This document shows, one piece after another, positions 28,556 through 64,000 of a DNA stretch of 64,000 nt (position 1 is its first letter; the number at the start of each line of letters is the position of its first letter). This DNA comes from Ctena decussata (taxonomy: Eukaryota; Mollusca; Bivalvia; Lucinida; Lucinidae): assembly GCA_963989385.1 (NCBI GenBank), contig OZ022509.1:53584271-53648270 (forward strand), read 5' to 3'. Under the pieces are notes generated by a model. That model searched no databases, was not told the origin of the DNA, and was given only the letters and a program-made list of their open reading frames with translations. The translations under genes and the position numbers were made by a program.

Positions 28556-28823
28556 TTTAAACATTAGAGTAGACTTCCTCGTGGTCCATAGGTTATGCGA
28601 AATACCGAAAACAGTAACCGTTGTCAGAATTCAAATATTACTTGTGTACAAGAGATAGAATTTTTGCAGGTGCATTAAGTGATTTGCGCTAAATGACTTA
28701 TTCACATTAATGGAGCTGGACCATTAACAACAGGACTGAAGTTTGAAATTAGTTTGAGCCGATGTAGCATGACTTTATTCTGATAGAATCAGTCATTTCA
28801 GGGCCATTGGCCCTTTGATTATA

Positions 28824-43462: not shown

Positions 43463-43502
<40 letters not shown>

Positions 43503-43581
43503 AGAAATGAGACAAACATCAAACAAAAATCTTCCCGGTAGCACTGGATCCAACAAATGGATTCAAAATGATTGAAATAAG

Positions 43582-43990
43582 TATATGGTAGGATTAAATC
43601 ATCAACAGTGCAAAACAATATTTACTGAGCGCTTTCGGCTTTCGCCTTCTTCAGAGTTTACAGGTACAAGAAAAAAATCAAAATTTCAACATTTCTACAG
43701 GTAAATCAAGAAAAAACAAAATAATCATGAAAACGTTTCTCAATTTACTATTCAAATTCACATTAAACGACCAAAGAAATTGAAAAAAGGTCGTTTAACA
43801 AAGCAAAATTGCTACAAGGCGGCCGTTTCACGGCCCCAGTTCGAATTTGAAATTGCAAAAATGATTTACCTGTAGAAATGTTGAAATTTTGATTTTTTTC
43901 TTGTACCTGTAAACTCTGAAGAAGGCGAAAGCCGAAAGCGCTCAGTAAATATTGTTTTGCACTGTTGATGATTTAATCCTACCATATATA
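43582..43990 (+). mobile_element. Inverted-repeat Penelope-like terminal fragment, arms with hammerhead-like motif
   Basis: Arms of about 125 bp (43582-43710 and 43865-43990) are inverted copies flanked by (TA)n on both sides. The right arm carries a motif at 43913-43946: CUGAAGA, GGC-GAAA-GCC stem-loop, GAAA, GCGC, UC and a 3-bp stem I. Its mirror is at 43624-43657. The interior contains a GGTCGTTTAA/TTAAACGACC hairpin pair and no coding sequence. Confidence 0.65.
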
Positions 43991-44009
43991 TATATATATA
44001 TATATATAA

Positions 44010-44340
44010 GGACAAATCATACCTTTCAGTGACATGCTACATATGTGGACCTTTCGATGACACTGCCGTACAGCTGCTCCTGTATCATTTAGCTTTGAAA
44101 TCTTAACTCTTTTTCATATACAATTCAAGCTTTGACAAGCTGAAAATGCTTAAAGCCGTATAAAAGCTTTATTTCAAGATATACATTTTTTCAGTGTCGC
44201 TGAAAGGTCAAGCATAAAAAGGTCATGCAAAATACATACCTTTGGTCGACTCGTGTATATGTCACTTAATGGTGAACTAATATATGTCAACAAAAGGTAC
44301 GACTGGTTACAATATATGTCACCTGAAGGGCTGTATTGCG
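44010..44340. repeat. Cluster of TGTCRCTNNAAGGT motifs
   Basis: At least six copies, in both orientations, of a 14-base motif (TGTCGCTGAAAGGT, ATGTCACCTGAAGG, ACCTTTCAGTGACAT and similar). The same motif recurs throughout the exon array at 55-64 kb. Confidence 0.6.
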
Positions 44341-44544
44341 ACAAAGGTTTAGTTTGGAGGAGGCTTTAAACGAAAGATAAAGGAAAACAAATATTTTAAG
44401 AAATTGGATAGTTAAATTTTTGTTCATTTGCTTCAAATTCAGTGATCTTAAACTATGTCGCCATAAAGCAACAAGGGTTGCTGTGAATGTCTGCATGTCT
44501 TCAAATTCAAAACATCCATTGAAAAGATGCTGAAAAGTTTCAAG

Positions 44545-44705
44545 AGCGCCTGTAGTGTAGTGGATGACATTCCGGACTACCAATCCAGGAGTCGCAAGAT
44601 CGATCCCCCGCTTCTCCGGTCTTTTGGATGAGACTTTACACCGAGGCTCCGTCTCCATGTGACCTGGTTGTTGGTGGGACGTTAAATCCAAGTTCACTCA
44701 CTAGC
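44545..44705 (+). mobile_element. tRNA-derived SINE, family 2
   Basis: GCGCCTGTAGTGTAGTGGAT (A-box region) and GCAAGATCGATCCCCC (B-box-like) form the head. The body has GGATGAGACTTTACACCGAG and the end GGGACGTTAAATCCAAGTTC with CACTCACT. Different from family 1. Confidence 0.65.
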
Positions 44706-44719
44706 TGAAAAGTTTCAGT

Positions 44720-46890
44720 TTTAACATTTCTGTTTCAAAAATCAAACAGCGACGTGAAATGGCTGATATGGCCAGCACATAATTGTTAGTGACTTTATGT
44801 AGAACATAGACACCTGCATAGTGTTCAGCTCCTGTGAAACTGTAATGGTAAATCGATTAAATTATCTAGTTACGTATATAATGAACATAACATTCATTTC
44901 CACAAATAACGATAATAATAATAATGAAAATACGTGTAAGACAATTCAAAACATGCTGCTTACATTTCAGTCGCAATGTAACGGTACATGATGTCAAAGT
45001 GTACGACGCGCCTGTCATCATCGCAAACATGCCAAAACGTTCGAGATGTTGAAACTATTTCGTGTTTTATTTTTTCTTTCCACAATATAATCGGCTGCTG
45101 ATCCATCGAAGCAAATTCAATTCTTTATTAATAAGACTACCGGATACATAAAGCATCACAAAAACAAATATAGGTTTCTTCAAATTTTATAAAATTTAAC
45201 CCGAATTATTGTTCTATAGTCATAAAACATATCTTTGTGTATGTATGTATATAGAGATGGACAATATTTTTTTAGTAGCATCAACATTTAATGAGTTTTG
45301 GGATACCCTCCAGTTTAATGCCCTTGGGACGGAGAACGGATATTCAAAGTATGAAAGTCATAGAGAAGCATCAGAAACAGAACTAAGTTATTGATTAACT
45401 GATTGTTCCTCTTGCTGTTCTGTTTCCGCGCTACTACCAAGTGACGTCTCATCTGTTTCCATATACCAGCTGAGGTCCCATGAATTGCAACCAGAGGGTC
45501 CCCAAATATATTTGTATAGCACCATAAAACCTTAGAGAAAATAAAATCTAATCAGAGACGCATACAGCCACACCCTTACTGTCAGCCTAAATAAGCAAAA
45601 CAAATATATACACTCAGAGACTTTGGAAACGCAGCACCTTTGTTCCTTCGTATCTTCCAGACAATATGACCGGACTTCAACGAAGTTTACCTGAGCGAAC
45701 ATTTTCAAATTTTGTTGCACAACTGGCCATAACAAGGTCACATGGCAAAGTGTTAAACAAACCTATATTTTACGATATTGACAATGGGAATGTACAACTC
45801 TTTAAACAAACGAATGCGTGTTTAGGCACACTTGCAAACCACTGAAGTACATGAAATATTTTTTATGCTTCTCTTCTTTCTTTGTTTAAAGAAAGAAGAA
45901 TGTTTTCGCCGTTAACAGTTTGTCCAAGAAGACAGGTACCCGTTGTTTTAAAATCGTTTGGATTATTGACATTTGACATCCATATTATGGTCAACAGTTT
46001 CTGAACATTTAAAATTCATCAGTCTTCGACATTAAATAAATTATAACTTGTTTCCATTTAAGAACAATGAAAATTGTATTTTGCAAATTTTAAGAGTAAC
46101 TACACTTCAGGACCTGACTGAATCAGATCCCAAACATTTCCCCAACATCAAAGGGAAAGATTGACAAAGACATCCCAACAAACAATAAATTACAAGTGAT
46201 AAGCTGAGTCAGCAGCTCTTTCCCAAATAGGTGGCAACTCAGCTTTCTTTATTGAACTAAATAATTTAGACCAACAGATGGGTTACAACAGACTAAGCAA
46301 ATTATACGAAAAACATTTAACAATTATTTTTACCTATTTTCTATTTTTGTTATAGAAGGGTTAAAATGAGAACACAATAAATTAAACAGCACCGAACATA
46401 AAACAAATGCAACCGCAACGAAAATACCGCCTTGGGACGGTCAGTAATAACTACTGCGGGGTTTAAACCGGTTTAACTGGGCCCAGACCTTCACCCTCAC
46501 CCTCCGCCGCGGTGCACACAATTAGTTGGTAGTTCGGTTGGAGGTCACCTAACTAATATATAGCTTTGTGTAGGGGCTATTATAGAGTCTGAACCCCGAC
46601 CCACCGACGTGCAATTAAAGAGGACAGCAAAGTTGTCAGCCGTGATTGGGTTAACCACTAAGCATGCAGACTGTCGCATTACATCTATGTTATAGCCAAT
46701 GCGTTTAAATCGTATGATAATTTTCTTAAATTTTACAAGCCCATTTGTATATAGATGATGAAGGGAAGCGTTAATTGCCTTGATACTAATCGAAGCAAAA
46801 TCTACGTGAACACAGCAGTTAGCATCTGATGACTTGATGAATTTTGTTGGCAATCTTCCTCTTCATTTTATGAAAACATGCTCTAATCCT
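44720..46890. other. Intergenic, no gene recognised
   Basis: Mostly AT-rich unique DNA with a small hairpin near 45868-45900 (TTCTTTCTTTGTTTAAAGAA) and an inverted fragment of the 39.1-kb element near 46090-46130. No exon was placed here. Confidence 0.4.
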
Positions 46891-46892
46891 GT

Positions 46893-47035
46893 TTAGTTGT
46901 TCTCTCTCATCTGTCCCATGCGTTTCTTTGCTCGCCTTTGTTGTTTATTTTGCCCATTCATTATCTTTGATCGGAGCTGCCTGTAGGTGTAACGGCACAT
47001 TCTATTTGCCATGTATTGTATAAGTACATTTTTAC
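46893..47035 (-). CDS. Recombinase-like gene, terminal exon: second half of a Myb/SANT-like domain
   Basis: Acceptor TGATTTCTGTTTCAG, entry in phase 1, stop TAA at 46893-46895. It encodes 46 residues beginning KNVLIQYMANRM and continuing YTYRQLRSKIMN, then a basic tail (QQRRAKKRMGQM). The previous exon ends in LP plus one base, so the join reads LPSKNVLIQYMA. That resembles the P-S/G-K...C-terminal helix seen after recombinase-like cores in related invertebrate and fish proteins (from memory). A DNA-binding role is inferred. Confidence 0.75.
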
Positions 47036-47588
47036 CTGAAACAGAAATCATATGTGTGCTCGAATGTAAAGTAGCATGTACAAATGTCAACATACATGTA
47101 TCAAAATTAAGAAAAATATCGTTCAAGGTGCATTGGGCTACCACTGTTCGATGAATACCACAGGTAGATAGTTACCATGTTATGACCAGTCAAAGCATCC
47201 AAAGGGAAATTATAAACAAAGAATACCATTAGTGCATAACTGATATTGTAACTACTTTCTTCTCAACCAAGTGTATATCGGAATATTATTATGTGACTAT
47301 TTCTACGAAAAAAAACTATGATAAATAAATAAAATAAAGTAAAAAAATTAAAACAAGATAGTCCCTATTTGTATCTGTTGATACACGGCTGGCAAGGTAA
47401 AGTGCAGTTTTAAATGATAAGATTAGACATAAAGTTGCAATTTGTAGGATCAAAATAGGATCAACAGCGATATGAAAATAGAACATAAATGTAAGCACAA
47501 AAAAATATCTGTTTCGCACTAATGCGCCCGCAGTAATACCTATAAATTTATATACATATATGTATACCGCATAAAGATCCTCACTTAC

Positions 47589-47687
47589 TTGGTAAAGCAT
47601 TGCCGTCTGCAGCCGTAATCCATTCATTAAAATCAACATTTATTTGCCGCGTCTCTTCGTCTGTCCATTTAAAATAATCTCTTCTAA
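47589..47687 (-). CDS. Recombinase-like gene, exon with first half of a Myb/SANT-like domain
   Basis: 99 nt, acceptor ATATTGCAG, donor GTAAGT, phase 1 on both sides. It encodes RRDYFKWTDEETRQINVDF and then NEWITAADGNALP. The two Trp residues and the acidic helix after the first are Myb/SANT-like. With the next exon it makes a complete small domain. Splice sites are strong. Confidence 0.75.
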
Positions 47688-48187
47688 CTGCAATATAATT
47701 GTACACCCAGTAAATTATTCGAAAAGACTATCAGCATGGTTTGTATTCATAGTATGGTTATTCATTCCAGGAACTAGGAGGTATTATTCATGATATATTC
47801 ATTTTGTATTTAATGATATTCTATATAAACCTGTCTTTTTATCAGAGAGGAGTCTCATTTCAGAATGTTTATTTGATTATAGAAATTAAGATCTCCATTC
47901 GAACGCTTATATTCAGTGGTACGTAAATATCAAATTCCACATACCATGTTTAAGTAGGTAATAGTTGATTGGTCATCGAGCTTAATCAGTTACTAAAGCG
48001 TATTTCAGTAGTTAACAGTCCGACCCATTCCACTGAGCCTTACACATAGCAAAGGATCAATTCTTTTGGAAAAGGGCACGGATAGATAGAAACCATATTG
48101 ATGAAATCTGTACACACTAACATTCAATCGGCTGATAATATGTTGTTGTGCATCAAAATATGACAACATTTGGATATGTCCACGTAC

Positions 48188-48256
48188 CTGCGATGTATTC
48201 CGAATCCTGCTGGGAAGATGTTTGCACAGAGCTAAAAGTAGAATCGTCGTTTGGTA
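48188..48256 (-). CDS. Recombinase-like gene, short linker exon
   Basis: 69 nt, acceptor TCTGATTTCAG, donor GTACGT, phase 1 on both sides. It encodes a Ser/Gln-rich segment (PNDDSTFSSVQTSSQQDSEY) with no known fold, probably disordered. Support comes from splice sites, phase and position rather than homology. Confidence 0.65.
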
Positions 48257-48495
48257 CTGAAATCAGACAGAATACAAGACTAAACGTTTCAATTACCTCA
48301 TTGGTAGCCCTAAACATTTATTCGGCGAAGAATGTGGAACATAATGAAAACGAGAAAACATGATTTTCTTACTGGCAGTCTCAGAAGGCAGTTTCTAAGC
48401 AAACAGGACTTAAATGCAAAAACATGGATGGTATATGGAATCAAATATAACAATATTGCTTAACCAAATTATGGCAACTTCTGTTTTGCTTTTAA

Positions 48496-49355
48496 GGTGG
48501 TGATAATCACTGATTTGGGACAAAGACAAAAATCTGCATAAAATACTCAAAATAACACTTATCTTTCCAAAACTTAGCAGATGCCTTCTTTATGTTGTTT
48601 CTCATAATTTAGAATCCCAAAATGCAGCATTTGTTAATGTTAAAAAGTGTTTTTATAAGAGAAGATCAAAGGGTAATTTTCTGCGAATGAATCTGAAAAA
48701 ATAATATCATTATTGAAAATATACTTAGTGCTTAGAGTACCTTGTTGCATAATGGAGAGCGTCCTAGCAATTATTTTTTCCATCTCTTTCACACATTATC
48801 AGGCTGAGCAGTTGAAAAAAGATGCAGTCTGTGTCCAAATTTTTTTGTCAAAACACACAGGTGAGACAGGTGATACTATTTTAACAAGGTTGAACAATTT
48901 CATCTACACACCACTGATCATGTCAGTAATGTATTATTTATATTGTAGGGTTAACATAGGTATGCTTGCCTACCCTATATTTAATAAATGCGTCCAGTGT
49001 ACATTGACTTTGTACATGGCTGAATATTGAGAAAAAGCTACCGTTTTCATCTGGTCTACATTACAATTTGAGAAAGAGTTGAAATAAATAATTGCTAGGA
49101 CGCTCTCCATTATGCAATAATGCACCTTCAGCACTACGTAAATTTTCAATAACGATATTATTTTTTCAGATTTATTCGCAGAAAATTACCCTTTGATCTT
49201 TCCTTATGAAAACACTTTTTTAAGCAGCATGTACATCTATTTTGTATTCTAAACTGTAAAGAACAACGAAAATAAGAAGTCTGCTAACTTTCAGGGAGAT
49301 ACGTTCCTTTTTTATGGTTTTATGCAGATTTTTACATTTACCATAAATCACCACC
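48496..49355. mobile_element. 860-bp element with ~300-bp inverted arms flanked by TTAA
   Basis: Begins GGTGGTGAT and ends ATCACCACC, with TTAA on each side (48492-48495 and 49356-49359). Arms 48496-48795 and 49058-49355 are inverted copies that include AGCGTCCTAGCAATTATT and CAAAGGGTAATTTTCTGCGA. The 260-bp middle has no domain. TTAA is the target of piggyBac-type elements, but the termini do not start CC. It is inserted in an intron of the recombinase-like gene. Confidence 0.75.
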
Positions 49356-49518
49356 TTAAATCATCAATATCGTATACGTCATTGATAATACTAGAGCCGA
49401 ATAAATGACCTTGAACCATTTATTGAAATGCAGTTTATAAGAATCTGAAACGGGAAATTCCTTGTATGTTCCCCATTTAACGTAAATCAAAATAGTACGT
49501 TTTAAATTTGTATGTTAC

Positions 49519-49587
49519 CTTCATGACCTTCATTTAGCTGCCCTGTAGGCGCTTGAACTAAACTAAATCCGGAGCGCGCTTGTGGTT
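49519..49587 (-). CDS. Recombinase-like gene, short linker exon with a decayed duplicate upstream
   Basis: 69 nt, acceptor TTCTTTTTAG, donor GTAACA, phase 1 on both sides. It encodes (E)PQARSGFSLVQAPTGQLNE and GHE. A diverged copy lies at about 49940-50015. Weak donor (GTAACA), but the phase fits on both sides. Confidence 0.6.
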
Positions 49588-49939
49588 CTAAAAAGAATAC
49601 AAAAGAAACGTATAAGCTTGGTTCTGCCAAGAGGTCAATAAAAACAATTTTCCCTTCACAACAGAGAAACTGCATATTAGTGGCACTCCGTATTCTTATT
49701 CTTTTGTAATCTGCGCAGAGACAAGTCTTTATAATTATGATTAGAATGATGTAAAGAATCCGGGAATATAACTTTTTGTTGACTAGCAATATCCATTGAC
49801 CTTCATCGATCATGCAGGTTCCACCTAAAGGTGCTTTCAATAGTTAACGAAATATTTTAACAAAAATATGACAAGAAAAAATCTTGCTAATTCACTTTGA
49901 TGGCACAGAAATAAACGTTTAAAAAGTTGTACTTTTGCC

Positions 49940-50015
49940 TTCATTTAGTTTGTAGCATCTGCTCTGTAGGTTTCTGAATAAAACTCAATCCAGAGTCCTC
50001 CAGTGATGCTTATCC
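49940..50015 (-). pseudogene. Decayed duplicate of the 49519-49587 linker exon
   Basis: On the minus strand it shows CTCTGGATTGAGTTTTATTC and CCTACAGAGCAG, matching CTCCGGATTTAGTTTAGTTC and CCTACAGGGCAG of the intact exon. About 10 extra bases follow, and phase-1 reading hits stops at once (TAA after the acceptor, and TGA later). A skipped relic of an exon duplication. Confidence 0.65.
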
Positions 50016-50340
50016 TAAAAAATCAGAGATATGTTTAAGTGGATCTGATATAAGCACAGTGGCTTGAAAGTGCTAAGGTTCGAACGCCATTCTTGTTTTC
50101 TGACTATATCTATTACGTTAGGTGTTTACACATGGACTGGAAAGCACCGATATAGTTACAGACAATGAATTTTTTAACCTGGTGCAGGACGTCAATATGT
50201 AAAACATGCAACTAAATCGCCAAATGAACAAAAGGACCACCCAATGCAAAATACTATGGTCACTAAAAGATACTGACACTCTGAAGGAAACATAATTTAT
50301 AATATCCACTGCAGGTTACATTGCAAGTACCAATGACATG

Positions 50341-50610
50341 AGAGGCGCCTTAGTCGAGTGTGGTTAGAGTGACTCGGTTATGATGAGGAAAGTCGCGGAG
50401 AGGTTGTGAGTTCGCGGCTCACCATCGCCATCCGAGGACTGGAAAGTTCTCTCTTTCAGCCCAGTAGTAAATGGGTACCTTTTACGAATCAGGGAATGAT
50501 AAGGCAGCGAAAGGAGAGAGATGAGCTCCGCCTTTCATCAGCTGTGCCCAAGATACAGTGGGTCTCTAACCCCCATTGCCCCTACGGCTATTAGGCTATG
50601 GGAAACCTTT
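50341..50610 (+). mobile_element. tRNA-derived SINE, family 3
   Basis: GAGGCGCCTTAGTCGAGTGT and TGTGAGTTCGCGGCTCACC make a tRNA-like head. The body includes TGGGTACCTTTTACGAATCA, and the tail has TACGGCTATTAGGCTATGGG. Head and tail differ from families 1 and 2. Intronic to the recombinase-like gene, opposite strand. Confidence 0.55.
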
Positions 50611-50717
50611 TTACATGTAACATGTGCTGAAACAGTGTTAAACAAATAACATAGGACATTATCTGTTCAAAATAAATTTTCTTAAGACTAAAATTGGTGT
50701 TTTTAAGATATTCTTAC

Positions 50718-50825
50718 CTAACGCATCAATCATTTCAATGTTTTGACTCCCAGCAGTTTGACCTATATCATGTTCCTCTGATTCTGCTCTTGTTGCAGTA
50801 CATGTAGCAGTTGCAGAAGAAGAAG
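50718..50825 (-). CDS. Recombinase-like gene, linker exon after the catalytic core
   Basis: 108 nt, acceptor TTTCTATTGCAG, donor GTAAGA, phase 1 on both sides. It encodes a Ser/Thr/Ala run (SSSATATCTATRAESEEHD) and then IGQTAGSQNIEMIDAL. Low complexity, likely a flexible link from the recombinase core to the Myb-like end. Both splice sites are strong. Confidence 0.7.
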
Positions 50826-50829
50826 CTGC

Positions 50830-52087
50830 AATAGAAATAAGCTGCATCAGATATACAATTCTCTGACAGTTTCAATTTTCTGCCTTTAGGACAGCGCAGT
50901 TGCAAATGCCTTCACTATCTGCGTTTGTGCTGTCATACAATATTATCTATTAACGGAGATATTTAAAGACTTTTTATATGCTTATATGCGATTTCTGGCG
51001 TATATAATTCTGAAACTTTTGCAAGAAGGCAACTAAAGGTGTATTCCTGAATAACAACACCAATTCATCTTTATGAAGTAAACATTATGACTTGTTTCAA
51101 TCTGTTCATTTGTGCACCTATATACATATGTACTACTGACAACTTTGAATGAAAATCGCCTTTTTATATATATATTTCTTATAAGAAAAAAAAAATAGAA
51201 TTTTCGCAAAACACCATTGAAATATAATTCTACAGGGCTTAACAATTTTTATATCAGAAATGGTCTTAGTCATGAACAGGTAAGGCAGCATATATGCACA
51301 ACATCCCGTGTTTTTTTTTTTTCAATGAAAATTGATACAAAGCAGCAGAAGCTACATATCTGAACTCAGACCGACTTTATCATGTAAATTATCAAATCTT
51401 TGCGTTCAAATTTTTGTCACTTTTTGGAATTTATATAAAACAGGGATTCAACACTTGCCTTTTACAAAAAATAAAACTCAACTTCATTATGTTAAGGTTA
51501 AAAAACAGACATCAGATGCCTATGAATTGAGTATAATAATTAGAACTGAAACATTTTGGGAAAAACAACAACGAAACATCCACTTTAACAGATCTCATAG
51601 TTTGTGGTCTTTAAATTGAGTCTGCTGCACGTACGTTATATAATTACTAATTGGTTGAAAGACAATTTCTGGGATTAAATTTGATTGCATTTATGCACTG
51701 AGCACGTAACAAGGGTAGAGAATGAAGCCCCATTCCATTATCATACCTCGGTATATGCGACATTACTATTACCAAAAAGAGGAAATTTCGAATTAAAGAT
51801 TGTTCGGGATTATTTTCGTATTTTGGATTTGATTAATGTGATGGTCAATTTATGCGGAAATTAAGATTGATCGCACAGGTATTGCCTTATCGTTTAAATG
51901 AAAAGTTCAAATCGATCTGCTCAGTAGTTTCTGGTGTCAGTCTGACAAACAACTTGGATACTTAAATATATTTATATGAAACGCGACAAGAATTAAATTG
52001 CATCTAAGAGTAGTACTACTGTAGGATTTTTCGCTTTTCTTTTGATAGATTTGAATGAAATTCTGATATGCAGTAGGTAGTTCCTAC
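50830..52087. other. Intron of the recombinase-like gene
   Basis: AT-rich, with short (TA)n near 51167-51175 and no recognised repeat family or exon. It would be 3' flank if the upstream exon is read through to its stop at 52088. Confidence 0.5.
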
Positions 52088-52179
52088 CTACAACCATTGA
52101 TCGTAATTATCTGTTTCCGGTATAGTGGGCATGCTATGGGTTTCTTGGAGATACCAGTTGTAACAAAGAGGTTTTATAC
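52088..52179 (-). other. Read-through alternative C-terminus of the core exon
   Basis: If the GTATAA donor is not used, translation continues through IKPLCYNWYLQETHSMPTIP to a stop at 52088-52090. This would give a shorter protein without the linker exons and Myb-like end. Which form is used cannot be decided from sequence. Confidence 0.5.
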
Positions 52180-53784
52180 CTTTGTCGATGGCTTGAAGAT
52201 GTTTTCCCACTTTTGTAACCGCCATAATAGGGAGGGGGTACTGGTACGTTCCAACATTTACGGCCTTGGAGTGGCCCATATGCTTATAGAAGAAGTCCCT
52301 CTCCGACCCCGGAACATCCATAGCAGAATAAATTGTACTGATGCGATGCCGTTGCATGGTGGCAGTAAGGAGATTTGGATTCTTCACCTTTGCTCCTTCA
52401 CACATCCTGTTAATGGCATCCCAGCCTTGAACATGAGTGTCCGAACCCTGTGTATTTGCAAAAATAAATCTATTCTCTGGTGCCACACCGGACCTGCGTC
52501 TCACATCAGGATCTATCAACAAATCTAAGCCTTTTTTACAGTCATTGGGGATAAAATCTGAAACAAGATGATTGCCTTTTCCCGGCTGGTATGTTATATC
52601 CATCGTCTTAAATAGTTGTTTATCGACAGTGTCCATGTTCTCGACCTTCTTGTTTTGTATCCATCTGCCACTTTTTGCATCCCTATAATGCTGTAGGGTC
52701 AGCCTCGGTGGTTCGCCACCTCTTCTGGCATTAAACAGGGTCAGGCGACTACAAATACTATCTCTCAGTAGCACAAACTCATGCGGTCCAAAAAAGGTGA
52801 AGTCAGACGTACATTTCTGTATAGTTCCGGAAATATAATCTCTCAATTTATTCACCTCTTCCTCCTCCGCAATCTGCTCGGGCATTCTCAGCATTTCTTG
52901 TCTGCTCATGTTAATTGCATAGGTTGAATCTCCAAAAATTAAAGTTTTGTTTAGTTCAAATAATTTCTTCCATTTTTCCATTTCGCTGGCTTTCTCATCT
53001 TTACCCATTCCGTATAGATGACCAACTAAGATGTCATGAACTGTAAGTAACAGGTACTGTATGTGGTGTTTAACTCCATATTTCAGGTTTGCAGTGTCGT
53101 CTTTTGTGACAATGTCTATAGCTGTTTCTAATGAAGAAAAATTGTGTCTTAAAAACATGTCCTCTACAGCCTCACATTGTCCATGCTCTTTCACTTTCAT
53201 AAACAATTTCGCAATAAGTCTCATGTCATTCATTACGCCTTTCTTTGTGTCCGACACATTGTCAGGCTTTCTCTTGAGTTTTTGAAAAAGTCTGCGGCCA
53301 ATTATGTTCATAGTCCTGTCCGATCTACAGAAGTTTCCAATGTCATCCCTCTGAAAACGTGAAAGAATGACCTTAGAGAACTGTTCATCTTCTCCATTCG
53401 AAAAGGTTTTGAAAGAATCCATGTGTAGGCTGACTGGTTGAAAAGCCGAGTCCCCAGTACATGTGGACTTATGCCTGTGGAACAGCTTTCTTCCGTAAAA
53501 ACCTTTGCATTTCGAACAGCAAACTAAGTCTTCTTGATTCTTTCGTTCTGACATATACTTTGGATTTGGCAGTTGAGCCTGAAACTTGTTGTGTCGGAGG
53601 ATCCCTTCCTTTCTAAAAGCTGTAAATGCTGCAGTTCTTTCCTTCGAATGTTTCGGTAGGTCGCACGCCTCTGCAACGGCTGGAATTTTTTTGTGTCTTA
53701 GTTCTATATGCCGAGGTAATTGCGTGTGCTGCCGAAGATCATCGCAAAATGGGCAGACTCGCGGTGGTCGTTTATATTCTTCCT
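52180..53784 (-). CDS. Tyrosine-recombinase-like core exon with two Cys/His fingers
   Basis: 1605-nt exon, acceptor TTTACTTTCCAG, donor AAAG|GTATAA, phase 1 on both sides. Numbering the open frame from 53824: finger 1 is C24-x2-C27...H39-x4-H44, and finger 2 is C103-x2-C106...H118-x3-C122 (CSKCKGFYGRK). An alpha-helical middle part (about 150-350) may correspond to a core-binding region. The catalytic region follows: R368 in ARRGGEPPRL (R-x-x-E spacing), K416 in PGKGNHL, R492 in TMQRHRIST, H518 in HMGHSK and Y527 in GTYQ, with the usual nine-residue step from H to Y. The second catalytic His is replaced by T489. Without splicing at 52180 the frame reads on 30 residues to a TAA at 52088-52090. 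It resembles transposon-derived recombinase genes (Crypton-like). Catalytic activity is not proven. Confidence 0.85.
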
Positions 53785-54095
53785 CTGGAAAGTAAATAAA
53801 TAAGACACTGTTTATGATAAACATCGCTAATTTTTCTTTATTTCTTATATTCGAACATATTAGACAATATGATAGGTCTGCTTGGCGGGAAAATAAACGC
53901 TCAATGTGAATCTTAACTTCTGCTAGAATATATGAACATTTTGTTGCTGTCTCATTTAATGGAGCAATGACAGCTTTTGTATGACCTTTCTATTATTGTA
54001 TTGTATTTTATACATAATGAGCTATGGTCATTTTTAAACGACCTTTCGATTACTAGAGTTAGTTTCATCAACAACATGTCTCATTTTAAACGTAC

Positions 54096-54179
54096 CTGTC
54101 AGTGTTTCATGTTTCTTCATGTGAGTGACTAGTGCACCTCTTGTTTTAAAACACTTTTCACAGTTGGAACAGACATGTC
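54096..54179 (-). CDS. Recombinase-like gene, single C2H2 finger exon
   Basis: 84 nt, acceptor TTTGTTTTACAG, donor GTACGT, phase 1 on both sides. It encodes (G)HVCSNCEKCFKTRGALVTH and MKKHETLT, a textbook C-x2-C-x12-H-x3-H finger. With one finger per symmetric exon, it is a cassette that can be included or skipped in frame. It joins the last 22-residue repeat exon upstream to the core exon downstream. Confidence 0.8.
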
Positions 54180-54658
54180 CTGTAAAACAAACATATTTCT
54201 GCTGGTTTGTCTTGAACAATTGGTCTTCCTTAAACATGCTTTTGTTTAACTACAAGGAAATATATTAACTACAGGCAAATATACTGACTGCCATTATTAA
54301 TGGTGCTGGCAGGTGAAGACTGATTGTTTCCTGCAGTTATTAATGAGAATTCAGAATGTACTAATGTATGTATAATGCTCTCTATCATATATCTGTTCCA
54401 ATCAAAATATTTTTCTATACCAGTGCGGGGTATAGTAAGTTCTTGAAAGCTGGTATATTTGTACATATAAAATAATGTGCATATTAAAAATGGAATGCCA
54501 AATATCGGAATATGAATTGTTATCAGAGCAAGCGCACAAGCTATACAGTAACATTAATGACAAAGGTGATATTACACGGAGGCTTAATGTACTTCTTGCT
54601 TCCTTAAATGATTTACTGAATAATTCATTTAAAGTGTGTATCGAAAACCATGTTTTAC

Positions 54659-54724
54659 CTGGATATGCTTCGCAGTCGTTATTATCTCCTGAGAGCAAAG
54701 TGTTTTCAGGTTTGTCTTGATTGT
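54659..54724 (-). CDS. 22-residue repeat exon, copy nearest the core
   Basis: Acceptor TTGCTTTCACAG, donor GTAAAA, 66 nt, phase 1 on both sides. It encodes (D)NQDKPENTLLSGDNNDC and EAYP. The most diverged intact copy, consistent with being oldest. Confidence 0.72.
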
Positions 54725-55699
54725 CTGTGAAAGCAACAATACGATAAATAAATTGAATCATACATTTGTTTACATGGATGTTATACTAGCCCAAGCGCTT
54801 TCTGTCTAACAATATAATTTACTATGAAGTTTACAAGAACTTGATAAGACCAACATTACTCTAAAATTAATATTGATAACTGGTTTACTTGAAAACAATT
54901 CAATGCTGGTGTTAATGCCTTCAAATAATGTTACATGTAACAAGAAATTGCTTATGGCGTCACTGCCATAGTATTAACGTATATGAATGTTTTCTTGAAC
55001 GAAATTAAGAGCTGGTCTACATGTTGCTTAAAGGTCTTGTTTATCAACAAACTTGTCACTGAAAGTTCGATAACTGAGAAGTCAGAGGAAATCTTTTTAA
55101 CAAACAGTTTGATTAGTATCTGGTTATGTACTGTCTTTACGTAAAATGCTGGTACCATAATGTTGAAATCATTTAAGCTTATTTTAAACGCAATGGCATA
55201 TCGTTATATATATTTCTGGACTTTATTTCTTAATTGCCTAGTTACAAAGTCTTTAGTTTGTGTAACATTGATGTGGAGGCGTCAGCAGATTGCCTCGTAC
55301 ATATGGAGACAGCCAATCTTCTATAAGACTTTGAGAAAATTTGACGGCATTGGCCACAAATGCACATTTTACAATGCCACTTGTTTGTCTATCTGCTGTT
55401 TGAACATTGTAAGTATATAAATACCTTAAACGATTAGGTAAGAAAGAGTTAACACAAAAACGTACTTCAGATGTAAATACAATTATGTATATATGTTGCT
55501 TAAAGGTATTACCTATAAACAAATATGTCGCAGGAAGGTTGTCAGCTTAAATGTTTGCAGACCTATATAAAATACCTGTTTACGTTTTTCTACGTTTGTT
55601 GGCTGTCAAAACAAGTGCAAAGACTTTGCAGTAACATTAGTGACAAATATATCTTACACAAAGGTTTATTGTACTTCTTGTTTCCGTAAATTATTTATT

Positions 55700-55740
55700 C
55701 TTTTAAAAATAGTTAATCAATAAGCAACAATAGGCTTAAT
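55700..55740 (-). pseudogene. Array unit that lost its exon
   Basis: The flanks match other units (GTACTTCTTGTTTCCGTAAA on one side, CAACAATAGGCTTAATAAAT on the other), but the 66-nt exon and its splice sites between them are missing. Confidence 0.6.
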
Positions 55741-56894
55741 AAATTGTATCGCACTTTGAAACAGCCCATACGTCTGCTTCATTTGTGTATATGGCTGATT
55801 TTTACTTGGAAGCAATCCAGTGCTGGTATTCATGTTACTAAAATAAAATTAAAAATTGTTTATGGCGTAACTACCTTTATATTAATGTATATGAATGTTT
55901 TCCTTAATTAAAATTCAGAGCTGGTGTATATGTCGCTCGAAGGTCTTTTATTTTATAAACGAATATGTCGCTGATAGGTCGAGGTTTAAGCATTCAAAAG
56001 AAAGCAACATGTATCTAAGACCAGTTTGATTTCTAGCATCTTTACGGTTTTTAGATGTGAAAAGCAGTTCTAGCATCTTTACGTTTTTTAGATGTGAAAA
56101 GCATAACTAATTTACATATGCTGAAGTGACAAAGGTGTTAACACACAAGACAAAATTCCATGTTGTTTCTAAATATATAGAACTCTCGTTCTTTTTCTTT
56201 CATTCTGGAAGCTAAGTTTATCAAGTTATTTCGGTTCATTTTGTATTATTTTCCGTGGCAATATACGATATTTATTATATTCACTTCGTAAAATGCTGGT
56301 ACCATTATGTCGTAATATTTAAGCATATTTTAAACGCAATGACCAGTCTCTTTATACATATCTAGATTTGTTTTAATTAAAAGCTTAGTGACAAATTTCT
56401 TTAGTTTGTGTAACATCAATGTGGAGGGGTCAGCAAATTCACCCTTACAAATGAAGACAGGCAATCTTCCATAAGATAAATTCGACGGCATTTACGTGTC
56501 GCTTAAATCCACATATGTATGTCTGACAATGCTCAATCTTTATGTTTCTGCTGTTACAGCAGTTTGAGTATATCTGAAACGATTTTATTTGAAAAACTTA
56601 ACATGAAACTTACTGCAGATGTAAGGTACAATTTTGTAAATATGTCGCTTAAAGGTATGACATATATTCATATATGTCGCTGGAAGGAAGGCAGTTGAAT
56701 TGTTTTATAGAAATATAAAAAAAATACTTATTTTACTATTTCTACGTTTGATGGCTACCAAAACAATCACAAAGATTTTACAGGAACTTTGGCAATAAAG
56801 GTGTCATAACTCAAAGGCATAATGCATTTCTTGTTGCCTTAATTTATATATTGAATTACTCATTTAAACTATATAATTAATCATGATGCTTTAC

Positions 56895-56960
56895 CTGGAT
56901 ACGCTTTGTTGTCGTTATTTTCTCCTGAAACAGCTGTGTCTTCAGGTTTGTCTTGAATTT
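56895..56960 (-). CDS. 22-residue repeat exon
   Basis: Acceptor TTGCTTTCACAG, donor GTAAAG, 66 nt, phase 1 on both sides. It encodes (E)IQDKPEDTAVSGENNDN and KAYP. Intermediate between the 54.66-kb copy and the right-hand group. Confidence 0.75.
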
Positions 56961-57884
56961 CTGTGAAAGCAACAATATGATAGATAAATTGTACCGTACT
57001 TTGAAACAGCCTATACGTCCTCTGCATTTGTTTATATGGTCGTTATCTAACAAATGATTTTGTATCTTGCAATATAGTTTACTATGGAGCTTACAAGAAG
57101 TTAATAACACCAATACTACTCTGAGTTTAATGTTTATGAATGTTTATGTGAAAGCAATTCAGTGCTGGTATTTATGTCGCTAAATGAAGTAAAAAGAAAT
57201 CATTTATGGTGCAACTACAATAATTCTTATATATATGAATGTTTTCCATGACTTAATTCATAGCTGGTCTATATGTCGCTCAAAGGTCTTTTATTTTTAT
57301 AAACGAATATGTCGCTGATAGGTCGATTGCTCAGCAGTCAGAAGAATGCTACAGGTATTTAACATTATTTTTATTTCTAGCATCTTTACGTTTTCTGGCT
57401 GTGAAAAGCATAAAAAAGACCTTAGTGGAAATGACAAAAGAGCTATTAGATGAGACAAAATTTTTATGTTGTTTCTAAATTAATCGAACTCTCGTGAGTT
57501 TGTACTCGAAGCTACGTTAACTAAATCATTTCGATTCGTTTGACATTAATTTCTGCGGCAATATCATGATAAATAAAATTCTATAGATTAACGGAACCCC
57601 TCTGATACTACTCTTATACTTGTCATAATGAAATTTACGCAAGCATGTATTGTGTTGGAATATACAAGGCCTGCTAGTGTTATCTGGAAATGTACGGTAT
57701 TTATTCGCAAACTTCGTTCTATATTTCTGGTTTTCATTTTACTAGATAGTTAAGCGACATAATCAGCCCATATGTCTCCTGCATATGTCGCTCCAAGGTA
57801 TTCCATATATACATATATATGTTGCTGAAAAGTAGGTAGCTTTTTCAGCCAAAAATGTGGAAAATACATATTTACTTTTCCTAC

Positions 57885-57925
57885 ATTAGTTGTCCACTAT
57901 GATACAATATGCAGCAATATGATAA
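57885..57925 (-). pseudogene. Second array unit that lost its exon
   Basis: CCTACATTAGTTGTCCACTA runs directly into CAGCAATATGATAAATAAAT. In intact units, the exon and about 200 bp of flank lie between these two sequences. Confidence 0.55.
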
Positions 57926-58756
57926 ATAAATTGTACCGTAATTTGAAACAGCCCATACGTTTCTTGCATTTGTTTATATGGTCGTTACCCAACCAATGGT
58001 TTTGTACCTAACAATATAGGTAACTATGGCGTTTACAAGAATTTAATAACACTAATACTCCTCTAAAATTAATGTTTATAAATCTTTTACCTGAAAGAAT
58101 TCGGTGCTGGTATTTATGTAGTTAAAATGAAGTTTAAAGAAATTGGTTATGACGTAGCTACGACTATTTAATGTATATGAGTGTTTTTCATGAAGAAAAT
58201 TCAGAACTGGTGTATATTTCAAGACCAGTTTGATTTTTAGCATCTTTACGTTTTCTTGCTGTGAAAAGCATGAAGAATTTAAATAGGTGGAATTGACTAA
58301 GGTGTTATCGCACAACATGGATGCCCATTTCATACTGGAAGCTAAGTTTATCAAGTTAAATTCGGTTCGATTTTTCTATTATGTTCTGCAGCAATATTAT
58401 CAAAATGAAATACTGGAGATTTTAGATAACCAATGGTACTGCAATTTCACTCGAAGACTTTCTTCGGTGTTCATACAATTTATATATATGTCGCTCAAAG
58501 GTATTCCATATATACAGACACATGTCGCTGGAAAGTCGATAGCTTTTTATAGCCACAAATATAGGAAATGCATATTTATTTTTCCTACATTATTTGTCCA
58601 ACAGAGCAAGCGCAAACTCTTTACAGTAACAATAATAACAAAAGTGTTATTGTACAAACGATTAATATTTTTTCTTGTTTTTAGTAATCTATTTATTGAT
58701 TAACTATTTTTAAACGAATAACGTCTTCTAACTATGTAATGATAAAAATGCTTTAC

Positions 58757-58822
58757 CTGGGTTTGCTTCGCCAATGTAATTTTCTCCTGAGGCAACAGTG
58801 TCTTCAGATTGGTCTTGACTTT
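58757..58822 (-). CDS. 22-residue repeat exon
   Basis: Acceptor TTTCTTCCATAG, donor GTAAAG, 66 nt, phase 1 on both sides. It encodes (E)SQDQSEDTVASGENYIG and EANP. Confidence 0.75.
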
Positions 58823-59794
58823 CTATGGAAGAAACAGTATGATAAATAAATTGTACTGTACATTGAAACAGCACATACATCTCTTATATTTGTTTATATG
58901 GTCGTTATCTAACCAATAATTTTGTACCCAACAAAACAGTTCACTATAAAGTTTACAAGAACTTAATAACTCCAATACTGCTCTAAAATTAATGTTTATG
59001 AATGTTTTCACCTGAAAACAATTCGGTGCTGGTATTTATGTCTCTAAAATGAAGTTAACAAATTGTTTATCGCGTTACTACCATAATTCAAATGTACATG
59101 AATGTTTTCCATGAAAACTTCAGTGCAGGTGTATATGCCGCTCAAAGGTCTTTTACTTTTATAAACAGATATGTCTCTGAAAGGTCGACTGCTAAGCAGT
59201 CAGAAGAAAGCTATAGGTAATTAAGACCATTTTGATTTCTAGCATCTTTACGTTTTCTGGCTGTGAAAAGCATAAAGAATTTAAATAAGTGGAAGTGACA
59301 AAGGTGTTATCACACAAAATTGGATTCCATGGTCTATCTAAATGAATCGAACGTTCGTTATTTCATAGTGAAAGCTTAGTTTTTCAATTTGTTTGTTTCG
59401 TGTGTTTTTTGTATAATATTCAGCGGGAATTATATGATAAATGAAATACTGAAGATTGAGGATACCCATATCAAACTGCAATTTAACTTGAAATCTTTAT
59501 TCCGTGTTAATAAGTTTTTATAAATATCGCTGAAAGGTATTCCATATATGCAGATATATGTCGCTGGAAAGTCGGCAACTTCTTTTAGCCAAAACAAATA
59601 TAGAAAATTTATATTGATTTTCCCTACGTTAATTGTCCAACAGAGCAATCGCAAAATCTTTACATTTACAATTATAACAAAGGTGTAATTGTCCGAAGGA
59701 TTAATGTTCTTCTTGTCTTCGTAATTTATATATTGATTCACTATTATTAATCGAATAACTTCTTTAAACTATGTAATTAAAAATAATGGTTTAC

Positions 59795-59860
59795 CTGGGT
59801 TTGCTTCGCCGTCGTAATTTACTCCTGGGACAACAGTGTCTTCTGGTTGGTCTTGACTTT
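59795..59860 (-). CDS. 22-residue repeat exon, EANP type
   Basis: Acceptor TTGCTTCCATAG, donor GTAAAC, 66 nt, phase 1 on both sides. It encodes (E)SQDQPEDTVVPGVNYDG and EANP. Near-identical to the 61869 and 63933 copies. Confidence 0.78.
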
Positions 59861-60831
59861 CTATGGAAGCAACAATATGATAAATAAATTGTATCGTACT
59901 TCGAAACAATCCATACGTCTCCTGCATTTGTTTATATGGTCATTATCTAACCAATGATTTTGCATCTAACAATACATTTTACTAAGGAGTTTGCAAGAAC
60001 TTACTAACAGCAATCCCTTCTCTAATATTTATGTTTATGCATGTTTTACCTGAAAGCAATTTAGTGCTGGTACTTATGTTGCTAAAATGAAGTAAAAAGA
60101 AGATGTTGATGGCGTAACTACCATAATTTTAATGTATATTAATGTTTTCCATAAAGAAAACTCATAGCTTGTGCATATGTCACTCAAAGGTCTTTTCTTA
60201 TTATAAACGCATATGTCGCTGATAGGTCGATTGCTAAGCAGTCAGAAGAAAGTACAGGTATTTAATCCATTTTGATTTCTAGCATCTTTAAGTTTTCTGG
60301 ATGTGCAAAGCATGAAGAATTTAAATCAAAGGGAAATGAAAAAGAGGTTATCACACAACATATAATTCCATGTTATATCTAAATGAATCGAACTCTTGTT
60401 TTTTTATACTGGAAGCTAAGTTTATCAAATTTCCCAGGTTTGTCTTTGCTGTATTACGTTCAACGGCAATAGTATGATAAATGAAATACTGAAGATTTAG
60501 TTTACCCATATAAAACTGCAATTTAATTCGAAACATTTCTTCCGTGTTAATACACTTTGTATATATGTCGCTCGAAGGTATTCCATATACAGATATATGT
60601 CGCTGAAAAGTTTGCGCTTGTTTGGGCAGAAAAAGAATGTAGAAAATATATGTTTTTTCCTAAGGTAGTTTGCCATCGCAACCAGCGCAAAATCTTTACT
60701 GTAACAATAATAACAAACATGCTATTGTACGAAGGATTAATGTTCTTCTTGTTTTTAGTAATTTATTTATTGATTAATTATTTTTAAACGAATAACTTCT
60801 TTAAACTATGTAATTAAAAATAATGCTTTAC

Positions 60832-60897
60832 CAGGATATCCTTCGCCGTCGTAATTTTCTCCTGGGACAACAGTGTCTTCAAGTTCGTCTTGACTTT
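60832..60897 (-). CDS. 22-residue repeat exon, EGYP type
   Basis: Acceptor TTGCTTCCACAG, donor CCTG|GTAAAG, 66 nt, phase 1 on both sides. It encodes (E)SQDELEDTVVPGENYDG and EGYP. Partner type of the 62909 copy. Confidence 0.78.
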
Positions 60898-61868
60898 CTG
60901 TGGAAGCAATATGATAAATAAATTGTACCGTACTTTGAAACAGCCCATACCTCTCTTGTATTTGTTTGTGTGGTCATTATCTAACCAATAATTTTGTTTC
61001 TAACAAAATAGTGTACTGTGGAGTTTAAAAGAACTAAATTACTCCAATACTACTCTAAAATTAATGTTTGTGAATGTTTCACCTGAAAGCAATTTGATGC
61101 TCGTATTTATGTCACTAAATGAAGTTAAAAGAAATCGTTTGTGGCGTAACTACCATAATTCTGAGTACATGAATGTTTTCCATGAAGTAAATCCAGAGCT
61201 GGTGTATATGTGGCTCAAATGTCTTTTATTTTTAAAAACGCATATGTCTCTGATATGTCGATTGCTAAGCAGACAGAAGAAAGCTACAGGTACTTAAAAC
61301 CGTTTTGTTTTCTAGCATCTTTACGTTTTCTGGCTGTGCAAAGCATAAAGAATTTACATAAGTGGAAATGACAAAGGTGTTATCACACCTAATAGGATTC
61401 CACGTTGTATTTAAATGAATCGGATTTCGTTGTTTCATACTGGAAGCCAAGTTTATCAAGTTTTGTCGGTTCGTTTTTTTTTTGTATTATGTTCAGCGGC
61501 AATAGTATGATATATTAAACTCTGAAAACTCAAGATACCCATATGAAACTGCAATTTAACTCAAAATCTGTCATTGGTATTAATACATTTTTTGTATATG
61601 TCGCTCAAAGATATTCCATATATACAGATATATGTCGCTGGAAAGTCGACGGCTCTTTTAAGCCAAAATGAATATAGAAAATACGTATTTACTTTTCCTA
61701 CGTTAATTGTCAAACAGAGCAAGCGAAAAATCTTTACAGTTACAATTATAACAAAGGTGTTATTGTACAAAGGATTAATGTTCTTCTTGTCTCCGTAATT
61801 TATTTGTTGATTCACTATTATTAATCGAATAACTTCTTTAAACTATGTGATTAAAAATAATGTTTTAC

Positions 61869-61934
61869 CTGGGTTTGCTTCGCCGTCGTAATTTACTCCT
61901 GGGACAACAGTGTCTTTAGGCTGGTCTTGACTTT
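61869..61934 (-). CDS. 22-residue repeat exon, EANP type
   Basis: Acceptor TTGCTTCCATAG, donor GTAAAA, 66 nt, phase 1 on both sides. It encodes (E)SQDQPKDTVVPGVNYDG and EANP. It differs from the 59795 copy by one residue (E to K). Confidence 0.78.
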
Positions 61935-62908
61935 CTATGGAAGCAACAATATGATAAATAAATTGTACCGTACTTCGAAACAGCGCATACGTCGCCTGCA
62001 TTTGTTTATATGGTCTTATCTAACCAATGATTTTTGCATCTAACAATACATGTTACTAAGGAGCTTACAAGAACTTATTAACACCAATCCCTTCTCTAAT
62101 ATTTATGTTTATGCATGTTTTACCTGAAAGTCATTTAGTGCTGGTACTTATGTTGCTAAAATGATGTAAAAAGAAGATGTTGATGGCGTAACTACCATAA
62201 TTTTAATGTATATGAATGTTTTCCATGAAGAAAATTCATAGCTTGTGCATATGTCACTCAAAGGTCTTTTCTTATTTTAAACGCATATGTCGCTGATAGG
62301 TCGATTGCTAAGCAGTCAGAAGAAAGCTACAGGTATTTAATCCATTTTGATTTCTAGCATCTTTAAGTTTTCTGAATGTGCAAAGCATGAATAATTTAAA
62401 TCAAAGGGAAATGAAAAAGAGGTTATCACACAACATATAATTCCATGTTATATCTAAATGAATCGAACTCTTGTTTTTTGATACTGGAAGCTAAGTTTAT
62501 CAAATTTCTCAGGTTTGTCTTTGCTGTATTACGTTCAACGGCAATAGTATGATAAATGAAATACTGAAGATTTAGTTTACCCATATAAAACTGCAATTTA
62601 ATTCGAAACATTTCTTCCGTGTTAATACACTTTGTATATATGTCGCTCGAAGGTATTCCATATACAGATATATGTCACTGAAAAGTTTGCAGCTTTTTTG
62701 GGCAGAAAAAGAATATAGCAAATATATGTTTTTTTCCTAAGGTAGTTTGCCATCGCAACAAGCGCAAAATCTTTACTGTAACAATAATAACAAACATGCT
62801 ATTGTACGAAGGATTAATGTTCTTCTTGTTTTTAGTAATTTATTTATTGATTAATTATTTTTAAACGAATAACTTCTTTAAACTATGCAATTAAAAATAA
62901 TGCTTTAC

Positions 62909-62974
62909 CTGGATATCCTTCGCCGTTGTAATTTTCTCCTGGGACAACAGTGTCTTCAAGTTGGTCTTGACTCT
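62909..62974 (-). CDS. 22-residue repeat exon, EGYP type
   Basis: Acceptor TTGCTTCCACAG, donor GTAAAG, 66 nt, phase 1 on both sides. It encodes (E)SQDQLEDTVVPGENYNG and EGYP. Confidence 0.78.
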
Positions 62975-63932
62975 CTGTGGAAGCAACAATATAATAAACA
63001 AATTGGACCGTACTTTGAAACAGCCCATGCGTCTGTTGTATTAGTTTATATGGTCATTATCTAACCAATATTTTGTATCTAACAAACAAGTGCTCTGTGG
63101 AGTTTACAAAAACTTAATTACTCCAATACTACTCTAAAATCAATGTTTGTGAATGTTTCACCTGAAAGCAATTCGATGCTCGTATTTATGTCACTAAAAT
63201 GAAGTTAAAAGAAATCGTTTGTGGCGTAACTACCATAATTCTAACGTACATGAATGTTTTCCATGAAGTAATTCAGAGCTGGTGTATATGTCGCTCAAAT
63301 GTATTTTATTTTAATAAACGCATATGTATCTGATAGGTCGATTGCTAAGCAGACAGAAGAAAGCTACAGGTACTTGAAACCATTTTGATTTCTAGCATCT
63401 TTACGTTTTCTGGCTGTGCAAAGCAAAAAGAATTTACATAAGTGGAAATGACAAAGGTGTTATCACACATAGTAGGACTCCACGTTGTATTTAAATGAAT
63501 CGGACTTTCTTTATTTCATACTGAAAGCTAAGTTTATCAAGTTTTGTCGGTTCGTTTTTGTGTATTTAGCAGATGTATTAAATTCTGCAAAACTCAGGAT
63601 ACCCATATGAAACTGCAATTTAACTCAAAATCTGCCATTGGTATTAATACATTTTTTATATATGTCGCTCAAAGATATTCCATATATACAGATATATGTC
63701 GCTGGAAAGTCGGCAGCTCTTTTCATCCAAAATGGGTATAGAAAATACATATTTATTTTCCCTACGTTAATTGTCTAACAGAGCAAGCGAGAAATCTTCA
63801 CAGTTACAATTATAACAAAGGTGTTACTGTACAAAGGATTAATGTTCTTCTTGTTTTCGTAATTTATTTATTGATTCTCTATTATTGATCGAATAACTTC
63901 TTTAAACTATGTAATTAAAAATACTGCTTAAC

Positions 63933-63998
63933 CTGGGTTTGCTTCGCCGTCGTAATTTACTCCTGGGAACACAGTGTCTTCAGGTTGGTCTTGACTGT
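63933..63998 (-). CDS. 22-residue repeat exon at the window edge, EANP type
   Basis: Donor GTTAAG. The acceptor AG falls on the last two bases of the window. 66 nt, phase 1. It encodes (D)SQDQPEDTVFPGVNYDG and EANP. It shows that the array and the gene continue beyond 64000. Confidence 0.72.
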
Positions 63999-64000
63999 CT

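Follow-up and report, generated by a model that had tools for sequence, protein, structure and literature searches.

In the genome of the lucinid bivalve Ctena decussata, we analyzed a stretch of 64,000 nucleotides (contig OZ022509.1, positions 53,584,271 to 53,648,270 of the forward strand; hereafter the window) and found that its positions 44008-64000 belong to an element of 34,714 bp that continues beyond the window end. This element is very likely a giant tyrosine recombinase (YR) DNA transposon with TA microsatellites as its insertion sites, and it carries a gene in which a SET domain is joined to the recombinase (SET-YR gene). A first-pass annotation of the window had proposed a recombinase-like gene fed by an array of duplicated exons. 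Such a gene is present; however, rather than standing alone, it appears to be the gene of a mobile element found in at least four copies. Positions above 64000 are given in window numbering carried into the flank (loci L009-L014).

Copies, ends, and insertion sites

The host genome (1.66 Gb) was searched with the protein, and the match counts are lower bounds. At least 37 matches were found, and four of these are at ~100% identity, namely, the window copy (C12) and the copies designated C13, C14, and C15. These four copies lie on four chromosomes and measure 34,714 (C12), 34,073, 34,067, and 33,847 bp. The four share both ends (left, AGGACAAATC...; right, ...GGATTTGTGAAA), and every end abuts a TA run of 18-50 bases. 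These sharp, shared ends are set in unrelated flanks: at the threshold used, the 1.2-1.8 kb past the TA runs are unlike between chromosomes, save for two shared stretches. The left flanks of C12 and C14 share a repeat that carries TA runs (window 43476-43984; L059), and these two copies may have landed in one repeat family. The right flanks of C13 and C14 share 214 bp at 73% identity, ~1 kb out. The features of the C12 copy are as follows.

44008-78722 (G000:C12:53628279-53662992, 34,714 bp), minus (strand of the gene): mobile element, C12 copy, with ends common to the four copies
43984-44007, no strand: (AT)12 microsatellite at the left junction of the C12 copy
78723-78750, no strand: (AT)14 at the right junction, beyond the window
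44009-44034, plus: left terminus AGGACAAATCATACC..., an imperfect inverted repeat of the right terminus
48492-49359, no strand: multicopy repeat inserted later into this copy (868 bp aligned to its other copies), which the C13 and C15 copies do not have
55051-64000 and on to 68543, minus: array of the motif CTTTSAGCGACATAT (at most two mismatches), in the introns of the exon array

The compared parts of the four copies are 98-99.9% identical, introns included. The identity is 98.6% over 14.8 kb between C12 and C15 and 98.4% over 10 kb between C12 and C13, and C13 and C14 differ at only three of 4,692 positions. Such a small difference is what would be expected if a single locus had been placed four times in the assembly or if the copies were haplotigs. 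However, the flanks and the lengths of the TA runs differ between copies, and so do the insertions. The 868-bp repeat sits in an intron of the C12 copy, with an overlap of 4 bp at its junction when compared with C13 and C15, and a 258-bp insertion is common to C13 and C14 but not found in C12. Given these differences, an assembly artefact is scarcely credible. The 868-bp repeat has inverted halves and recurs at least 25 more times with 95-98% identity.

If ordinary segmental duplication had spread a host gene whose recombinase serves as a DNA-binding or chromatin protein, as in the DUF3504 genes, this would be in keeping with the many introns, the fused chromatin-type domain, and the predicted proteins in many animals. 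Against this stand copies on four chromosomes whose ends coincide and abut TA runs in every case, and this level of identity throughout the introns. Also, DUF3504 genes are described in the cited passages as lacking most of the catalytic residues (PMC3212892), whereas most are kept in the present family. We therefore regard segmental duplication of a host gene as very unlikely.

When the termini are read inward, 16 of the 25 best columns match, and one of 2000 shuffles was as good. Copies of the motif CTTTSAGCGACATAT are often paired, ~32-36 bp apart. The sequence AGCGACATA occurs 29 times within the element and not at all outside. A 13-bp form, CCTTT[CG][ACG][AG]NGACA, has 13 sites within the element (44022 and 44050 on the plus strand, 44195 on the minus strand, eight in the array, 78456, and 78674) and none in the other 89 kb or in reversed sequence; this form was drawn up after inspecting the ends, so the count is descriptive. 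The copies nearest the two ends are mutually inverted. As duplicates of one another, the array units do not provide independent copies of the motif. The distribution fits predicted binding sites of the element's own protein.

The SET-recombinase gene and its exon array

The earlier interpretation of the exon array is partly supported. All 15 exons that it placed on the minus strand at 46893-63998 were located, with AG acceptors throughout, GT donors except in the terminal exon, and every internal exon in phase 1-1, which agrees with the proposal that the symmetric cassettes can be skipped without a frameshift. The set consists of eight 66-nt exons, one 84-nt C2H2 exon, the 1605-nt core, linkers of 108, 69, and 69 nt, and 3' exons of 99 and 143 nt. 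The joined frame had been expected to stay open for about 900 residues and, with one further 66-nt unit added, is open for 922. The eight 66-nt repeats are all present, but the intact units number nine in all: R1 lies 1.3 kb beyond the window end (65274-65339). There is also a decayed tenth unit (67123-67188), which lacks GT/AG at its splice sites.

The SET domain was missed at first, since its exons lie beyond the window. A sea cucumber protein with SET and recombinase parts (P0105) found matching exons upstream and on the same strand by tblastn, and PF00856 (SET) was matched on exon pieces. The complete model has 20 exons with all phases compatible and an open frame of 1,121 aa, in the order S1, S2, S3, acidic exon, R1-R9, finger, core, L1-L3, and two tail exons.

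75283-75382, minus: SET exon S1, upstream of the array, beyond the window
74586-74763, minus: SET exon S2, upstream of the array, beyond the window
73973-74199, minus: SET exon S3, donor picked by splice signal and phase, not homology
72840-72929, minus: acidic exon, picked by splice signal and phase, not homology
65274-65339, minus: 66-nt exon R1, beyond the window
63933-63998, minus: 66-nt exon R2, from splice sites and phase (as are R3-R9 and L1-L3)
62909-62974, minus: 66-nt exon R3
61869-61934, minus: 66-nt exon R4
60832-60897, minus: 66-nt exon R5
59795-59860, minus: 66-nt exon R6
58757-58822, minus: 66-nt exon R7
56895-56960, minus: 66-nt exon R8
54659-54724, minus: 66-nt exon R9
54096-54179, minus: C2H2 finger exon, 84 nt; a finger lies at the equivalent place in Haliotis protein P0009
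52180-53784, minus: tyrosine recombinase core exon, 1605 nt, with zinc-type motifs (by eye), a SAM-like arm, and the catalytic domain
50718-50825, minus: linker exon L1
49519-49587, minus: linker exon L2
48188-48256, minus: linker exon L3
47589-47687, minus: first exon of the C-terminal conserved domain, from splice sites and phase, tblastn with the Haliotis tail, and alignment A2
46893-47035, minus: last exon of the C-terminal conserved domain and stop, from splice site and phase, tblastn with the Haliotis tail, and alignment A2

The predicted protein thus reads as a SET domain, an acidic exon, nine 22-aa repeats, a C2H2 finger, the YR, linkers, and a conserved tail. From R1 to R9, the spacings of the 66-nt exons are 1341, 1024, 1040, 1037, 1037, 1038, 1862, and 2236 bp, which gives a period of 1.02-1.04 kb in R2-R7 and gaps of 1.3, 1.9, and 2.2 kb at R1-R2, R7-R8, and R8-R9, respectively. 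The 66-nt exons arose via tandem duplication of exon plus intron units. Since R2-R7 recur as such units, their shared length and phase largely reflect one copied event and not eight independent coincidences. The number of units appears equal between copies where it can be judged. In C13, seven units, R1, and the decayed unit were read, and R2 straddled the border of two pieces; the C15 array, judged by length alone, matches to 27 bp.

Selection on the 66-nt exons, in the form of an excess of conservation over the introns, was considered and is not shown by these comparisons. In most pairs that include R1, R8, or R9, conservation is higher in the exon than in the intron downstream of it (e.g., 0.79 vs 0.47 for R8-R9), but the upstream intron is equally or more conserved in several pairs (0.81 vs 0.74 for the exon in R2-R8 and 0.96 vs 0.95 in R4-R6). 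Near the linker exons, an L2-like sequence with no clear frame is seen by eye at window ~49950-50015, perhaps a decayed duplicate, and L2 and L3 themselves look alike in protein.

The core had been called tyrosine-recombinase-like, and its predicted fold and structure matches agree with that assignment, as do most of its catalytic residues. In the AlphaFold2 model, the catalytic domain has a mean predicted local distance difference test (pLDDT) score of 87, but the C-terminus and residues 506-516, where the catalytic tyrosine lies, score below 50. The core matches XerH, an integron recombinase, Cre, and a phage integrase, which supports a YR fold. The residues R, K, R, H, and Y are retained in 52-54 of the 54 aligned sequences. 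Profile searches, which had been suggested as a check, were less productive: a Pfam scan of the core alone gave nothing useful, PF00589 was matched by just five of 54 relatives (best 1.4e-6), and the NCBIfam search returned nothing informative. The DUF3504 profile had no match in ten of ten members at E≤0.1. Distant YRs score poorly on such profiles, and with this weak Pfam support the core is assigned to the YRs by its fold and residues. The core exon is readable for 89 nt beyond its donor before a stop, so a short isoform ending there is possible.

Among solved structures (PDB), the SET part is nearest to KMT5A (SETD8, PR-Set7; 5e-21), followed by KMT2D (3e-12). In contrast to KMT5A, the SET domain here is fused to a recombinase, and its NHS-type motif reads N-D-A (by eye); its activity is putative. 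In the C-terminal tail, W, F, K, N, and K are invariant across 14 sequences. The two 3' exons had been described as Myb-like, which gained no support from profiles: none of these 14 tails matches the Myb models at E≤1.

Other coding content was sought with Pfam (E≤0.01), in six frames for L009, L010:1-4722, and the window stretches 44008-46892 and 47036-51990 and on the plus strand for 54001-64000. The SET domain was the sole recognition in these parts of the element, with no DDE domain and no reverse transcriptase domain. In the stretches outside the six-frame scans (46893-47035, 51991-54000, and the minus strand of 54001-64000), no other open reading frame of at least 150 aa was found, except for one antisense to the core. 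The element, as far as these scans and frames indicate, has one recognizable gene.

Relatives and comparison with known systems

The core is matched by 153 proteins, 120 of them listed, and 79 homologues match the recombinase part of the joined protein. Ten of the 79 have a precomputed SET domain; these are predictions, several labelled as isoforms. They come from Haliotis rufescens, Apostichopus japonicus (two), Anneissia japonica, Strongylocentrotus purpuratus, Clytia hemisphaerica, Argopecten irradians (two), Ruditapes philippinarum, and Crassostrea virginica. These carriers span Mollusca, Echinodermata, and Cnidaria. The earlier claim that acidic repeats precede the recombinase is supported. 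N-terminal tandem repeats were found in 28 of 51 homologues with an N-terminal region of at least 100 aa, compared with none of 51 shuffled regions and none of 61 cores. The repeats inspected vary in sequence between species. An extensible repeated spacer ahead of the recombinase is thus widespread among family members. Searches with one short peptide pattern for each set gave 17 stretches in viral contigs and 28 in prokaryote genomes, with no confirmed relative in either set, which is weak evidence of absence.

According to the cited passages, YR DNA transposons in animals are either Cryptons, which lack extra domains and terminal repeats, or components of large viruses (PMC3212892; PMC10871703). 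The present element resembles Cryptons (CryptonA and CryptonI) and DUF3504 in that these are eukaryotic DNA elements with a tyrosine recombinase. However, animal Cryptons are described there as having no C-terminal domain and no terminal repeats (PMC3212892), whereas we found both the tail exons at 46893-47687 and a terminal inverted repeat, together with a length of 33.8-34.7 kb, SET, C2H2, and tail domains, 20 exons, and a TA target. The YRs of endogenous nimaviruses (majanivirus and others) are similar in combining a C2H2 zinc domain, a SAM-like arm, and a YR in an animal host, in inserting into a microsatellite (the telomere repeat), and in being multi-exon in some cases, but they reside in viral genomes of 265-401 kb and target (TAACC)n or 28S ribosomal DNA, and the TA-targeting members use a DDE enzyme; the passages on these YRs mention no SET domain (PMC10871703). 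With the comparison made by domain layout only and on those passages, nimaviral YRs may be the nearest described kind.

Partial descriptions of Starship/Enterprise elements also show a large element classified around a tyrosine recombinase. Those elements are fungal, carry cargo genes, and have a recombinase of another family. Here, in contrast, one intron-rich multidomain gene is found in an animal, a distinction drawn from description. DIRS, Ngaro, and PAT likewise encode YRs, but these retroelements need a reverse transcriptase, and the scanned stretches of the element gave none.

Several observations weigh against a transposon moved by its own YR. Mobility was judged from assembled genomic sequence alone, and the parts read or aligned amount to ~31.1 kb of C13, 25.1 kb of C15, and just 6.6 kb of C14 (the core and both ends). 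In the two flanks of C13 (L058 and L055), a stretch of 142 bp recurs directly with 95% identity and another of 92 bp recurs inverted with 92%, which may represent a dispersed repeat or something else. The third motif copy at the left end (44195) is oppositely oriented, and no exon bearing the first methionine was found. In the core, all 54 sequences have T, S, or R in place of the HxxR histidine, and several catalytic residues are missing from P0122, one of the SET-YR proteins. Among the 79 homologues, 69 have no precomputed SET domain, though many of these are short predictions. For the remaining YR families of the host genome, no ends were found. Furthermore, a short terminal inverted repeat with TA flanks is also expected if a TA-targeting DDE transposase moves the element in trans, with the SET-YR gene as cargo or regulator, and nimaviruses of sesarmid crabs are described in the cited passages as entering (AT/TA)n with a Ginger2-like DDE enzyme (PMC10871703). 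However, the scanned parts of the element hold no DDE domain at the threshold above, the YR residues are conserved in most relatives, and the motif copies nearest the two ends are inverted. Such a passenger role, the leading alternative, is improbable, and we favor a transposon that relies on its own recombinase.

Other recombinase families of the host genome also occur in near-identical copies. A second family is represented at G000:C12:41731567 (L022) and C192:287857 (L021), which agree at 99.6% over 4.6 kb and at ~99% over the adjoining 10 kb, the full length taken on one side; one has a 1.8-kb internal duplication, and one, located on a small unplaced contig, could be an allele. This family has a strong downstream 434-bp array, which resembles a non-coding repeat, and two adjacent ~370-bp units with exon-like frames. 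At G000:C15:3178201-3214411 (L031, L033, and L035), a tandem cluster holds three related recombinase frames of ~380 aa in 36 kb, with DNA ~98% alike, 24-25% identity to the window core, and a stop in one. An open frame of 1176-1192 aa is present in four copies (C11:3030218, C12:71779901, C13:40121154, and C156:108246), which match only query residues 9-204 (28%); two of the loci, L043 and L044, are 99.1% alike. Elsewhere in the window, a 410-aa open frame at 27398-28630 is, to judge by a motif, a putative LINE reverse transcriptase, and a 145-bp tandem repeat in eight copies lies at 34576-35718.

Proposed mechanism and significance

YR DNA transposons are a known kind of element, and the present form was not found in print. 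Titles and the opening parts of abstracts in the published literature, outside Repbase, where an entry is possible, gave no YR element with a SET domain. We lean toward the view that the element represents an undescribed superfamily of giant animal DNA transposons in Cnidaria, Mollusca, and Echinodermata, with a YR fused to its own histone methyltransferase, insertion into TA microsatellites, and an acidic spacer lengthened by the duplication of frame-safe exons together with binding sites.

In the mechanism that we propose, the recombinase would bind the inverted terminal motif beside the TA run, and the element would be excised or copied out, probably as a circle. A crossover between the TA run of the element and that of the target would then complete the insertion. 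After such TA-TA recombination, the element would be flanked on each side by TA runs that differ in length, and no unique target duplication would arise. The 22-aa repeats may act as a stretchable acidic spacer between the SET half and the DNA-handling half of the protein. Each tandem unit of ~1.04 kb would add a frame-safe exon and intronic motif copies, and the array may thus have a double use, for the protein and for its binding sites. The known KMT5A enzyme acts on H4K20. The KMT5A-like SET domain may mark histones at the element or at the target and thereby control silencing, replication, or access.

The near-identical 34-kb copies suggest that the element was active recently and is possibly active at present, and its enzyme is a candidate tool for the insertion of large DNA at microsatellites. 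Some marine-invertebrate proteins annotated as uncharacterized or as SET-domain proteins may be transposon genes. A mobile element of this type may write its own chromatin state, and chromatin modification borne by a transposon for its own benefit would become directly testable.

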